A stretch of 44,281 bases of DNA. It comes from Candidatus Aenigmatarchaeota archaeon (GTDB taxonomy: Archaea; Aenigmatarchaeota; Aenigmatarchaeia; PWEA01; JAGHBM01). The translations under genes and the position numbers were made by a program. The stretch is from contig JAGGZI010000014.1 of the NCBI GenBank assembly GCA_021162085.1, positions 1-44,281 of the forward strand. The letters run 5' to 3'. Below, piece by piece: positions 8,229-42,582 of the stretch. A model generated the notes under the pieces. It was given only the letters and a program-made list of their open reading frames with translations, was not told where the DNA came from and did not search any database. Within the stretch, counting starts at the first letter, position 1, and the number at the start of each line of letters is the position of its first letter.

Positions 8229-8284
8229 TCTTCTTCGAATTATTAAACTTAATTTCTTAAATATTCTTGGTGCCTGGGGTGGGT

Positions 8285-8362
8285 CAACCATTTCCCCAGA
8301 AAACGCTTTGCGTCTTCAAGTTTTGGGAAGTACAGAGACCTTTTTTGAAAAAGGGATCTGTT
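8285..8362 (-). other. tRNA-Met T-loop intron (59/60), 78 nt
   Basis: Splits TTCGAA^...^A; central helix 3 of 4 bp (TTCG/TGGT); hairpin ACAGATCCCTTTTTC/AAAAAAGGTCTCTGT shared with the Ala and Arg introns. Confidence 0.75.
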
Positions 8363-8384
8363 TTCGAACCCACGACCTCTAGAT

Positions 8385-8432
8385 TTCTCACCATATCATA
8401 ATCCTCTCAGACTCATCACTCATAACTTTTGT
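8385..8432 (-). other. tRNA-Met anticodon-loop intron (37/38 region), 48 nt
   Basis: Canonical BHB: central helix CTCA/TGAG, bulges TAA and AAA. Confidence 0.88.
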
Positions 8433-8552
8433 TATGAGTCTAGCGCTCTAACCAACTGAGCTACCCAGGCATCTGAGATTCTAATTAGAGTTTCTTTTCA
8501 TACAACACTTTTCTTTGTGAAAGAAAAGGTTGTTGGTGGACCCGGGGAGATA

Positions 8553-8613
8553 AGGGAAACTTGAAAAGTTTCCAAGTTCTTTCCCTTGAGGCTTTCTTTT
8601 GAAGAAAGGCTCA
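8553..8613 (-). other. tRNA-Ile T-loop intron (59/60), 61 nt
   Basis: Begins GAGCCTTTC..GAAAGCCTCAAGGGAAAGAACTTGG as in the Thr intron; splits TTCAAA^..^T; no convincing BHB central helix. Confidence 0.7.
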
Positions 8614-8635
8614 TTTGAACTCCCGACCTCTACGT

Positions 8636-8676
8636 AGCCCTTTTCCGCATACGCACAGAAGCGTTAACGGAAAATT
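8636..8676 (-). other. tRNA-Ile anticodon-loop intron, 41 nt
   Basis: Lies between CTACGCTGATA and ACGTAG; strong inner helix TTTTCCG/CGGAAAA; BHB relaxed. Confidence 0.78.
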
Positions 8677-8695
8677 TATCAGCGTAGCGCTCTAA

Positions 8696-8776
8696 TTACC
8701 CACACTTTTCTTTTTCTCACAAACTTGACTGAAGTTTCTTTTCCCACAGTCTTTTCTTTGTGAAAGAAAAGCTGTT
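8696..8776 (-). other. tRNA-Ile D-loop intron, 81 nt
   Basis: Removal restores CTCAGCTTGG^TTAGAGC; BHB-like GCTT/GGGT with bulges GGA and AAT. Confidence 0.8.
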
Positions 8777-8949
8777 CCAAGCTGAGCTACGGGTCCATTG
8801 TAAATTAATTTTTATGCAATCTATAAAAAAGTTTCCCTTCCATTCAAGGCAATGTATACTCAAGACCTGAGAAAGAAATAAGGATAAAAATCGATGCCTT
8901 ACTACACACCGACATTTAAAAACAAAAAATTTTGGTGGACTTGTCGGGA

Positions 8950-9100
8950 CTCTCTCGAACCTGCAGGGGGCAAGCCCCCTTCAGTTTTACGGTATTCCTG
9001 ATATCTTCCCTTCCTTTTAAAATTGGCAAACTTTCAGTTTGCCCAAAATTGTTTCTTTGGGAAATACAAAAACCTTTCTTTCAAAAGAAAGGGATTTGTC
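8950..9100 (-). other. tRNA-Ala T-loop intron (59/60), 151 nt
   Basis: Splits TTCAAA^G..AG^TCCCGA; near-identical 130-bp block shared with tRNA-Arg; central helix 3 of 4 bp. Confidence 0.83.
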
Positions 9101-9122
9101 TTTGAACCCGAGACCTCCGCCG

Positions 9123-9286
9123 CTCTCAGACCATTCACCAAGCCAGTTTCCGTTGACGTCTTGAGATTTTATCTCAAGTATTTGGAACATTGAGTTCCAA
9201 AACTTTACGCCGAGTAAAGGGTCATCCAAGTTTTCTGACTTCACCAAGCCAGTTTCCGTTGACGCTTTACGCCGAGTAAAGGGTCA
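9123..9286 (-). other. tRNA-Ala anticodon-loop intron, 164 nt, containing an internal duplication
   Basis: BHB TTCG/TGAG with bulges CAT and AGC; mature loop TTCGCAC. Confidence 0.85.
9134..9286 (-). repeat. Direct repeat inside the Ala intron: 9240-9286 (47 nt) repeated as 9134-9158 plus 9203-9224, split by a 44-nt insert
   Basis: Exact copies of ttcaccaagccagtttccgttgacg and ctttacgccgagtaaagggtca. Confidence 0.95.
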
Positions 9287-9410
9287 TGCGAAGGCGGCGC
9301 TCTTCCAACTGAGCTACAAGCCCATAATTAATTTTTCCTATCAATAATAGTTTTCTTTCGTACAACTCTTTCTTTTTCTAAAAGAAAGGTTGTTGGTGGG
9401 CCCGCCGAGA

Positions 9411-9449
9411 TCTCCACGATGACGTACACTTCGTGCACGTCAAGCTATC
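9411..9449 (-). other. tRNA-Pro T-loop intron (59/60), 39 nt
   Basis: BHB TTCA/TGGA with bulges AAG and GAT; hairpin GACGTGCACGAAGTGTACGTC. Confidence 0.85.
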
Positions 9450-9455
9450 TTTGAA

Positions 9456-9542
9456 TTCCCGACACCCTTTCTTTTTTTCACAGTCTTTATCAAAGTTTTC
9501 TTTGACCGTAGACGACTTTCTTTTGTGAAAAGAAAGGAGTCT
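9456..9542 (-). other. tRNA-Pro T-arm intron (53/54), 87 nt
   Basis: BHB CCCG/CGGG with bulges AGA and AAT; removal joins CCCGAG to TTCAAA. Confidence 0.83.
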
Positions 9543-9579
9543 CTCGGGTCGCCAGCACCCCAAGCTGAAATGCTAGACC

Positions 9580-9646
9580 ACTCCAGGGGACACCTACGGT
9601 TTCCCCTTAGGGTAACCTCTTCCCTTTCTAGAGCGCTAAGGGCTTA
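9580..9646 (-). other. tRNA-Pro D-loop intron, 67 nt
   Basis: Removal gives D-arm GTGTAGC^GGTCTAGCAT; 3 of 4 bp central helix TGTA/TGGA; near-direct repeat GTGGTGTAGC/GTGGTCTAGC flanks the insertion. Confidence 0.72.
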
Positions 9647-9747
9647 GCTACACCACGGGCCCATGATTAAATTTATGATATTTTTCTAAATATATTGATA
9701 TAGAAACATTTTTAAATCAATTCGCACTATTTTTATTAGGTGAAAAA

Positions 9748-25016: not shown

Positions 25017-25103
25017 AGTCTCTTGATTACTTGAATATTGTATTTAAAAATAACTACGACGAATGTCTTGAAAATCGACAAATTATTGGTGCGGAGGGCC
25101 GGA

Positions 25104-25286
25104 TTCTCACACGACTCACAGGAACCATAGATTCCAGTTCTCCCTCACTCTTGACCACTCCTTCAAAATTGTTAGGAAAACTCTTTTCGAGTTTTCCAAG
25201 TTCTTTCCTTTGATGCTTTCATATTTTGGTTGGGTTGCCCGGACTGGTCCAGACTATGGAACCCAACCTATATTACGAAAGGCTCA
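25104..25286 (-). other. tRNA-Leu T-loop intron (59/60), 183 nt
   Basis: BHB TTCG/TGAG with bulges AAT and AAT; GAGCCTTTC..GAAAG and AAAGGAAAGAACTTGGAAAACTC shared with the Thr intron. Confidence 0.87.
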
Positions 25287-25325
25287 TTCGAACCGACGAA
25301 CCCACTAAGGGACCAGATCTTGAGT

Positions 25326-25363
25326 ATCACCTATCATCTGAGTATCAAAACTCAAGACTGAAG
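25326..25363 (-). other. tRNA-Leu anticodon-stem intron (30/31), 38 nt
   Basis: BHB CGCC/GGTG with bulges AGC and ATA; removal yields a perfect anticodon stem and CAA anticodon. Confidence 0.78.
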
Positions 25364-25372
25364 CTGGCGCCT

Positions 25373-25386
25373 TTGGTCCACTTAGA
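25373..25386 (-). other. tRNA-Leu D-loop mini-intron, 14 nt
   Basis: BHB GGTC/GACC with bulges AAT and AAA; removal restores GCCAAGTGGTCAAAGGC. Confidence 0.72.
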
Positions 25387-25445
25387 TTGACCACTTGGCT
25401 ACCTCCGCATTAATAAAAAGAATTATAGAAATAGAAATAAATAAT

Positions 25446-25928: not shown

Positions 25929-26007
25929 ACTACCACATAATAATTTAAAAAATGATTATATAAATCTTTTTCTTTTTATTTTGATAAAATTGGTGCGCCA
26001 GCCGGGA

Positions 26008-26135
26008 CTTCCACCCTACGGAGGGACACCAAGGTTTCCCTCCTTATGGGTATATTCTCCCTTCCTTTTAAAATTGGCAAAAGCGAAGCTTTTGCAAGTT
26101 CTTTCCTATTGCCCTTTCTTCTGAAGAAAGGCAAT
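26008..26135 (-). other. tRNA-Gly T-loop intron (59/60), 128 nt
   Basis: BHB TTCA/TGGA with bulges AAA and AGT; shared core AAAAGGAAGGGAGAATATACCCATAAGGAGGGAAAC. Confidence 0.88.
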
Positions 26136-26156
26136 TTTGAACCCGGGTCTCGAGCT

Positions 26157-26192
26157 GTCTCCACTCCAACTCATTTGACTGAGTAAATTGCT
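26157..26192 (-). other. tRNA-Gly anticodon-loop intron, 36 nt
   Basis: BHB TTCC/GGAG with bulges CAA and ACA. Confidence 0.88.
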
Positions 26193-26273
26193 TGGGAAGC
26201 TCGGGTCCTACCACTAGACTACTGGCGCACAACAAATATTTATAATTTTCTCTTTATTATATCTTAGGGTGTT

Positions 26274-28891: not shown

Positions 28892-29130
28892 TGGAGCCCC
28901 GGGCCGGACTCTCACCCTACGGAGAGACAAAACGATGGACTTAGGCAGAGCCTAAGTCAGTTTGTCGTTTCCCTCCTTATGGGAATATCCTCCCTTCCTT
29001 TAAAAAATATAGGAAAACTCTTCGAGTTTTCCAAGTTCTTTCCCTTGAGGCTTTCTTCTGAAGAAAGGCTCATTTGAACCGGCGATCTTCCGCTTACGAG
29101 GCGGACGCATTACCACTATGCTACCGAGGC
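28892..29130 (-). tRNA. tRNA-Thr(CGT) with one intron; CCA encoded
   Basis: Acceptor GCCTCGG/CCGGGGC, anticodon stem TCCGC/GCGGA loop CTCGTAA, T-stem GCCGG/CCGGC; mature 75 nt. Confidence 0.92.
28909..29072 (-). other. tRNA-Thr T-loop intron (59/60), 164 nt
   Basis: BHB TTCA/TGAG with bulges AAT and AGT; shared core AAAGGAAGGGAGGATATTCCCATAAGGAGGGAAAC. Confidence 0.9.
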
Positions 29131-42221: not shown

Positions 42222-42243
42222 TAATATGGTGCCCCTGCCGGGA

Positions 42244-42397
42244 CTTTCACGAACCCGCAAGGAACCTACGGTTCCTTTCAGTTTTACGGTATTCCTGATA
42301 TCTTCCCTTCCTTTTAAAATTGGCAAACTTTCAGTTTGCCCAAAATTGTTTCTTTGGGAAATACAAAAACCTTTCTTTTGAAAGAAAGGGATTTGTC
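42244..42397 (-). other. tRNA-Arg T-loop intron (59/60), 154 nt
   Basis: BHB TTCA/TGAA with bulges AAG and AGT; 130-bp block nearly identical to the tRNA-Ala intron. Confidence 0.9.
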
Positions 42398-42418
42398 TTT
42401 GAACCCGGGTCCCAGCCT

Positions 42419-42491
42419 TTCTACTTTGCGCTGAGTAAAGGGCCACTTCTACAAGCCAGTTTGATGAATCTTTATGCCGAGTAAAGATTCT
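42419..42491 (-). other. tRNA-Arg anticodon-loop intron, 73 nt
   Basis: BHB CTGC/GTAG with bulges GGA and AAA; hairpin CTTTACTCGGCATAAAG and AAACTGGCTTG shared with the tRNA-Ala intron. Confidence 0.88.
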
Positions 42492-42582
42492 CCGCAGGGC
42501 TGTATCCTATCCAGCTAGACTACAGGGGCACTAAACTATAAATATATATAGTATAGAATTTAATAAAGTTCAAGGTGTAATA

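Follow-up and report, generated by a model that had tools for sequence, protein, structure and literature searches.

T-loop introns in the tRNA genes of an Aenigmatarchaeota archaeon and a short, probably mobile structured element of DPANN archaea

How do similar inserts come to interrupt different tRNA genes at the same place? The question is raised by a tRNA-Thr gene in the window (the whole stretch of 44,281 nt that was analysed), for which the initial annotation had described a T-loop intron with a conserved RNA core common to several tRNAs and had suggested, as its source, either a common mobile ancestor or a functional RNA, protein-binding or catalytic. Our analysis reproduced the coordinates of the Thr insert exactly and identified T-loop inserts in seven tRNA genes of the window (Arg, Thr, Gly, Leu, Ala, Ile and Met), all on the minus strand and with sizes of 63 to 183 nt when the exons are read as TTCRAA / T (A in Met) (Table 1). 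These split genes were recognised with a script, as loci in which the T-stem and the acceptor stem pair only after a long T-loop insert is skipped. Within the window ARAGORN called 0 tRNAs; across the 790-kb genome just two tRNAs passed the cut-off of the Rfam tRNA model, compared to up to 40 in members of the class with a comparable genome size. Because tRNA finders fail on split genes, tRNA counts for such lineages may be wrong.

Table 1. Split tRNA genes of the window, their T-loop introns and the 3′ domains of these introns.
Feature	Position	Strand	Evidence
tRNA-Thr(CGU) gene with T-loop intron	28892-29130	minus	RF00005 match to 5′ part; T-stem and acceptor pairing by script
Thr T-loop intron, 164 nt, position 59/60	28909-29072	minus	junction helix TTCA/TGAG
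Thr intron, type A 3′ domain: GGAAGGGAGG third-strand candidate, CCC/GGG pair, hairpin	28915-28998	minus	mirror match 8/10
T-loop intron of tRNA-Gly(CCC), 128 nt (gene 25991-26228)	26008-26135	minus	junction helix TTCA/TGGA
Gly intron, type A 3′ domain	26014-26065	minus	
T-loop intron of tRNA-Leu(CAG), 183 nt (gene 25087-25408)	25104-25286	minus	junction helix TTCG/TGAG
T-loop intron of tRNA-Ala(CGC), 151 nt (gene 8933-9323)	8950-9100	minus	3/4 junction pairs
Type B core in Ala intron	8956-9010	minus	R2 47.3 bits, E 2e-10
T-loop intron of tRNA-Arg(GCG), 154 nt (gene 42227-42529)	42244-42397	minus	junction helix TTCA/TGAA
Type B core in Arg intron	42250-42307	minus	R2 48.9 bits, E 9e-11
Short T-loop intron of tRNA-Ile(GAU), 5′ module, no core (gene 8534-8796)	8551-8613	minus	junction pairs 0/4
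Short T-loop intron of tRNA-Met(CAU), 5′ module and small hairpin, no core (gene 8268-8470)	8285-8362	minus	

Alignment bore out the 5′ modules that had been quoted as shared among the T-loop inserts of the window. Further modules were observed elsewhere. A tRNA-Pro(GGG)-like gene (9393-9661, minus strand) has apparent inserts within both the T-stem and the T-loop, with CCTTTC..GAAAG modules. D-loop introns of ~60-110 nt (in 8534-8796, minus strand, and at loci L005, L006 and L012) contain CTTTTCTTTCACAAAGAAAAG..GGAAAAGAAA, which is common to the T-loop 5′ module, and the occurrence of this sequence in both kinds of intron points to a second repeated module that moves between D- and T-loops. 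Anticodon-loop introns (in 8933-9323 and 42227-42529, minus strand, and at L029, L046 and L059) share CCCTTTACTCGGCGTAAAGCGTCAACGGAAAC, and relatives from other families contain CCCTTTTC..AAAAGCGTTARCGGAAAA, a third recurring intron module; the tRNA-Ala gene holds two copies within one tRNA.

The 3′ domains of the inserts are of two kinds, type A and type B. Type A domains are carried by the Thr and Gly introns, by one further tRNA (contig C51) and by one inverted copy (contig C26), and in a limited search of the collected loci they were seen in the window's genome alone. Type B domains are present in the Ala and Arg introns and in four tRNAs of the same genome outside the window, while the 3′ domain of the Leu intron is degenerate (6.7 bits with covariance model R2). 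When the type B covariance model was applied to type A, Gly scored 5.5 bits (E ~5) and Thr was absent from the matches. The two types have in common the sequence GGAAGGGA..ATAT and a similar plan, consisting of a purine run, a short outer pair and a purine-pyrimidine hairpin; as the type B model fails to bridge to type A, it is on these features that their kinship rests, and they suggest that the two types are related. Thus, the sharing of a core between tRNAs stood, but the single core of the initial annotation became two, with the type B model blind to type A. The compensatory changes it had reported between Gly and Thr did not hold up, since the CCC/GGG pair is invariant and the extra difference in Thr is a one-sided change from G-C to G.U; true covariation emerged only after homologues from other genomes were added. 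At another locus of this genome (L034, G000:C26:24768-27785), one T-loop intron has a type B core as its 3′ half and, in its 5′ half, an inverted type A domain, an arrangement that is a nested insertion at the DNA level.

That homologues should exist in related genomes proved correct for type B. This element of 58 nt (about 60 bases) matches covariance model R1 in 13 of the 160 genomes of its class, with a best E-value of 1e-17, and also occurs in other phyla. An exact IUPAC pattern run over GTDB genomes retrieved at least 120 stretches, at least ~119 of them archaeal, and the matches listed include Micrarchaeota, Aenigmatarchaeota, Diapherotrites/Iainarchaeum, Altiarchaeales and Woesearchaeota. 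The host genomes are almost all metagenome assemblies, and whole-genome counts in 19 carriers gave 1 to 29 copies per genome. A match in Verrucomicrobia (L112), which has neither purine run nor perfect stem, is likely due to chance, and a viral origin was discarded because 2.9 million viral contigs yielded one match, again without purine run or perfect stem. In 78 kb around 20 carrier loci, Rfam 15 at the gathering cut-off gave tRNA matches alone, and we found no description of the element in the literature searched, which scarcely covered subscription journals. Type B is, in sum, widespread in ultra-small archaea and missing from Rfam.

The consensus of the type B core comprises a purine run, UCAGGAnnnn and the hairpin CY(Uz)RAACUGn[stem]GCGGUUYRG, in which C20-G76, Y21-R75, [U z], R24.Y74, AAC/GUU, U.G and G-C are followed by a variable stem. 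The last G of the core is invariant. In 65 dereplicated cores, paired cells accounted for 94.9% compared to 85.2% after shuffling, two-sided changes numbered 116 compared to 41, and a slide of the hairpin alignment by a single column made the pairing collapse. Pair 21-75 is C-G, U-A or G-C in 120/124, and since its C-G and U-A states co-occur inside single genomes (for example L085/L142, L146/L150 and L081/L147), covariation at this pair exceeds what shared descent alone would produce. We regard the fold and the distribution of type B as nearly certain. Some cores have an extra hairpin upstream (a stem of at least 6 in 16.5% vs 2.6% of shuffled sequences). Single-sequence folding energy failed to discriminate the cores (z between -1.3 and -2.1), and a CAG/CTG pseudoknot, considered as an alternative fold, was abandoned since changes of the A are not matched by its partner.

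Further regularities concern the purine run. Column n2 follows column z (0.97 bits: T-A, G-C, G-G, C-A) and column n1 follows Y3, couplings that look like base triples. When reversed, the purine run located 5′ of TCAGG equals the purine strand of the stem at 93-95% over 3-7 positions, compared to 58-63% (sd ~0.02) in shuffled controls and 37-65% in non-mirrored ones, and the type A domains satisfy the same mirror rule at 7-8 of 10 positions. The candidate third strand places G opposite G-C and A or T opposite A-U. Together, the mirror match and this letter rule follow the pairing code of antiparallel purine triple helices, and judging from these sequence patterns it is somewhat probable that the purine run forms a third strand along the hairpin's purine strand. 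Triple helices of this kind are more familiar from DNA than from RNA, for which reason the molecule that folds may be single-stranded DNA, and it is equally possible that the conserved fold is one of DNA or of RNA. Of the functional RNA that had been suggested, the conserved and covarying fold found support, but the fold need not be that of an RNA.

Several lines of evidence indicate that type B moves. Identical 53-nt cores are located at five unrelated places in one Micrarchaeota genome. Many of the standalone cores lie between direct repeats (~15-80 bp), with a spacer of 0-50 nt before the purine run, and in 19 sites the right repeat copy begins directly after the last G of the core. Flanking repeats reached a Smith-Waterman score of at least 11 at 22% of the sites vs 0.35% of the cross-site controls, and a 15/18 copy was present upstream in 40 of 138 cores (32 of these within 150 nt) and downstream in four. 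The duplicated stretches correspond to gene starts (L025, L078, L138 and L183), a gene end (L179) and tRNA 3′ halves; at L029, L052, L160 and L174 the duplicated tRNA 3′ end lies beside an intact tRNA, and in the duplication cases that were read one gene copy stays intact. A tRNA lay no more than 150 nt away from 24% of the cores, vs 4.6% of random positions. Since target duplications flank the cores, including those next to intact tRNAs with a duplicated 3′ end, we are confident that the type B element is mobile. The idea of a common mobile ancestor gained strong support for type B, from the identical cores at five sites, from the target duplications and from the presence or absence of introns within a genus described below; around the window's own introns no target duplication is visible. 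An exact 3′ end together with a duplication of variable length is what marks target-primed insertion. Autonomous copies of larger size, carrying genes of their own between core and upstream repeat, were also considered and set aside as improbable given the proximity of most upstream repeats, and several of the eight repeats beyond 150 nt are tRNA-like or repeated matches.

How the T-loop introns might be removed was approached through their junctions. With the exons taken as TTCRAA / T, TTCR was compared with the four bases of the intron that precede its final 3-nt bulge. The full four-pair junction helix (TTCR/YGRR) was present in 12 of 22 split tRNAs vs 2.6% at other offsets of these introns, a count inflated by the non-independence of the tRNAs from the window's genome (G000), and the variants on the intron side were TGAA, TGAG, TGGA and TGGG. 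Weak junctions among the 22 were those of Ile and of L058 (G067), with 0/4 pairs, and that of one tRNA in L005, with 1/4. In genome G028, the tRNA-Gly intron also pairs GCTC/GAGC and so forms a full bulge-helix-bulge. The T-loop intron of G028 carries the core; G015 and G125 have introns at the same site without a core, with the junction TTCA/TGAA, and in G040, of the same genus, the tRNA is uninterrupted (97% identity over 74 nt). Intron presence thus varies within one genus, and the core-less introns indicate that the splice sites share the junction rather than the core.

A splicing endonuclease is available in the window's genome, which contains one PF01974 gene (EndA, E 2.8e-28) whose nearest solved relatives are 5x89 and 1a79, the closest single-unit one being the M. 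jannaschii enzyme. The relaxed bulge-helix-bulge junction and the presence of this gene suggest that the endonuclease probably removes the T-loop introns, and we consider it likely that those of the window are spliced in this way. There is nevertheless a tension between the single-subunit type of EndA and the relaxed sites, as homotetrameric (M. jannaschii-like) endonucleases are not among the broad-specificity enzymes. Copies in the anticodon loop of tRNA-Ala in three carriers (L047, L054 and L067) do not fit the T-loop account, and no clear junction was found for their cores. Regarding gene order, two split tRNA genes precede the EndA gene by ~550 nt (L021/L022, G000:C51:17341-19150), with a gene for a predicted archaemetzincin-like protease in between.

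The explanation that we favour, with some reserve, is that the inserts are endonuclease-spliced T-loop introns and that the Ala and Arg introns consist, in their 3′ third, of a copy of a mobile element present in several DPANN phyla. In these introns, located at 59/60, the exon TTCR would pair with the intron YGRR after the T-stem, leaving 3-nt bulges on both sides, and excision by EndA would restore a mature loop UUCRAAU. As to their origin, the element would insert by its exact 3′ end and duplicate 15-80 bp of its target. With tRNA 3′ halves as a favoured target, an exon1-exon2-core-exon2 arrangement would result, in which the tRNA would initially still be intact. With a junction helix in place, the endonuclease could connect exon1 with the second copy of exon2, and the first copy could decay, giving rise to a T-loop intron with the core at its end. 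This route from duplication to intron is put forward tentatively, as somewhat more doubtful than probable. In a broader reading, the ~60-nt element would represent a novel class of minimal mobile elements, one found in DPANN archaea, with a single strand folding as a purine-motif triple helix, driven by an enzyme, producing long target duplications of variable size and generating tRNA introns through duplication of the 3′ half and the splicing endonuclease; taken jointly, these propositions stand at about even chances.

If so, the element may reveal how new tRNA introns arise. The origin of archaeal tRNA introns has been stated to be unknown (PMC4090602), and 'snapshots' of intron insertion have been called for (PMC4033280). 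Three states are candidates for such snapshots: the uninterrupted tRNA, the tRNA joined to a core and to a second copy of its 3′ half, and the tRNA with a spliceable T-loop intron at whose end the core lies.

Other explanations have to be weighed against this one. Noncanonical introns and their transposition are known from Thermoproteales (Fujishima 2010, as reported in PMC4090602 and PMC4033280), and the T-loop introns described here are themselves a form of noncanonical archaeal tRNA intron. According to these secondary accounts, the two groups are alike in lying outside the anticodon loop, in occurring several per tRNA, in being similar across tRNAs and in having bulge-helix-bulge-like junctions. 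The inserts could hence be ordinary archaeal tRNA introns spread by the same kind of transposition, with the core as an immobile passenger, which would also agree with the core-less introns in G015 and G125. A passenger, however, would not be expected to reside outside tRNA genes between target duplications or to keep a covarying fold across phyla, and it is in these features, as well as in the Aenigmatarchaeia host, that our introns depart from the Thermoproteales ones as portrayed in those reports; we consider this explanation unlikely. SINE-like retroposition would be a possible mechanism within our favoured explanation; here, reverse transcription of an RNA that has a fixed 3′ end would take place at a nick in the target and would yield an exact 3′ junction, a ragged 5′ end and target duplications of variable length. 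Like SINEs and other target-primed retroelements, type B is short and non-coding, with an exact 3′ end, a variable left spacer and target duplications of variable length, and L071/L111 contains an exact tandem array. Unlike SINEs, it is archaeal and very short, and most carriers lack a detected reverse transcriptase: among these incomplete genomes, RVT_1 was identified in 4/13 carriers and 2/15 non-carriers, and it was not found in G000, G002, G005 or G028, each with 6-9 copies. Retroposition of this kind is therefore doubtful, although it deserves consideration. Type B could also be a MITE- or REP-like derivative of IS200/IS605, that is, a strand recognised by the Y1 transposase or the remnant of a TnpB guide RNA. 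It shares with IS200/IS605 MITEs, REP elements and omega RNAs a short fold, a guide-like pair at the foot of the hairpin, just 5′ of it, and a fixed end just 3′; moreover, the third-strand letters match the DNA purine-triplex code and cores occur in both orientations relative to genes. Against this, Y1_Tnp was detected in 1/13 carriers and none of 14 genomes from the order had a TnpB zinc-ribbon scoring above cut-off, all of these genomes being incomplete, and the element is outside Rfam and flanked by direct repeats of 15-80 bp, while Y1 transposition is not known to make target duplications. Such a derivation appears very unlikely. As candidate mobilisers, TnpB, Y1 transposase and reverse transcriptase are disfavoured, none being associated with the element in the incomplete genomes surveyed.

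Two explanations remain. If the inserts were catalytic introns, whether of group I, of group II or of a new self-splicing kind, this would account for a covarying core close to the intron 3′ end and for the invariant last G. Rfam, however, recognised only tRNA in the window and in the 20 carrier loci, and around the Thr gene even a search at E up to 10 returned tRNA and chance-level matches only, with no match to group I. In addition, a group I core is far larger than 58 nt, the core lies at a variable distance (0 to ~10 nt) from the 3′ splice site, and the junctions look like a relaxed bulge-helix-bulge. Archaeal group I introns (PMC6125680) resemble our inserts as structured insertions in non-coding RNA genes of DPANN archaea, but all those listed there reside in rRNA genes and were found by group I models, which ours do not match. 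The catalytic role considered in the initial annotation is thus highly improbable. The same low probability applies to a cis-acting regulatory or processing RNA ahead of genes and tRNAs: several cores do stop close to a start codon (0-6 nt ahead of it) or to a tRNA end (2-4 nt away), yet the downstream genes are unrelated, both orientations occur, duplications flank the cores and the distribution is patchy.

Finally, some regularities were noted in the placement of the cores (L093, L106, L107, L177; L125, L133, L161, L186). Their 3′ end was 2-4 nt from tRNA gene ends and often 0-6 nt ahead of start codons, a placement for which insertion aimed at gene boundaries, or selection, may be responsible. 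Cores near tRNAs had the same orientation as the tRNA when located at its 5′ end and the opposite orientation when located at its 3′ end.
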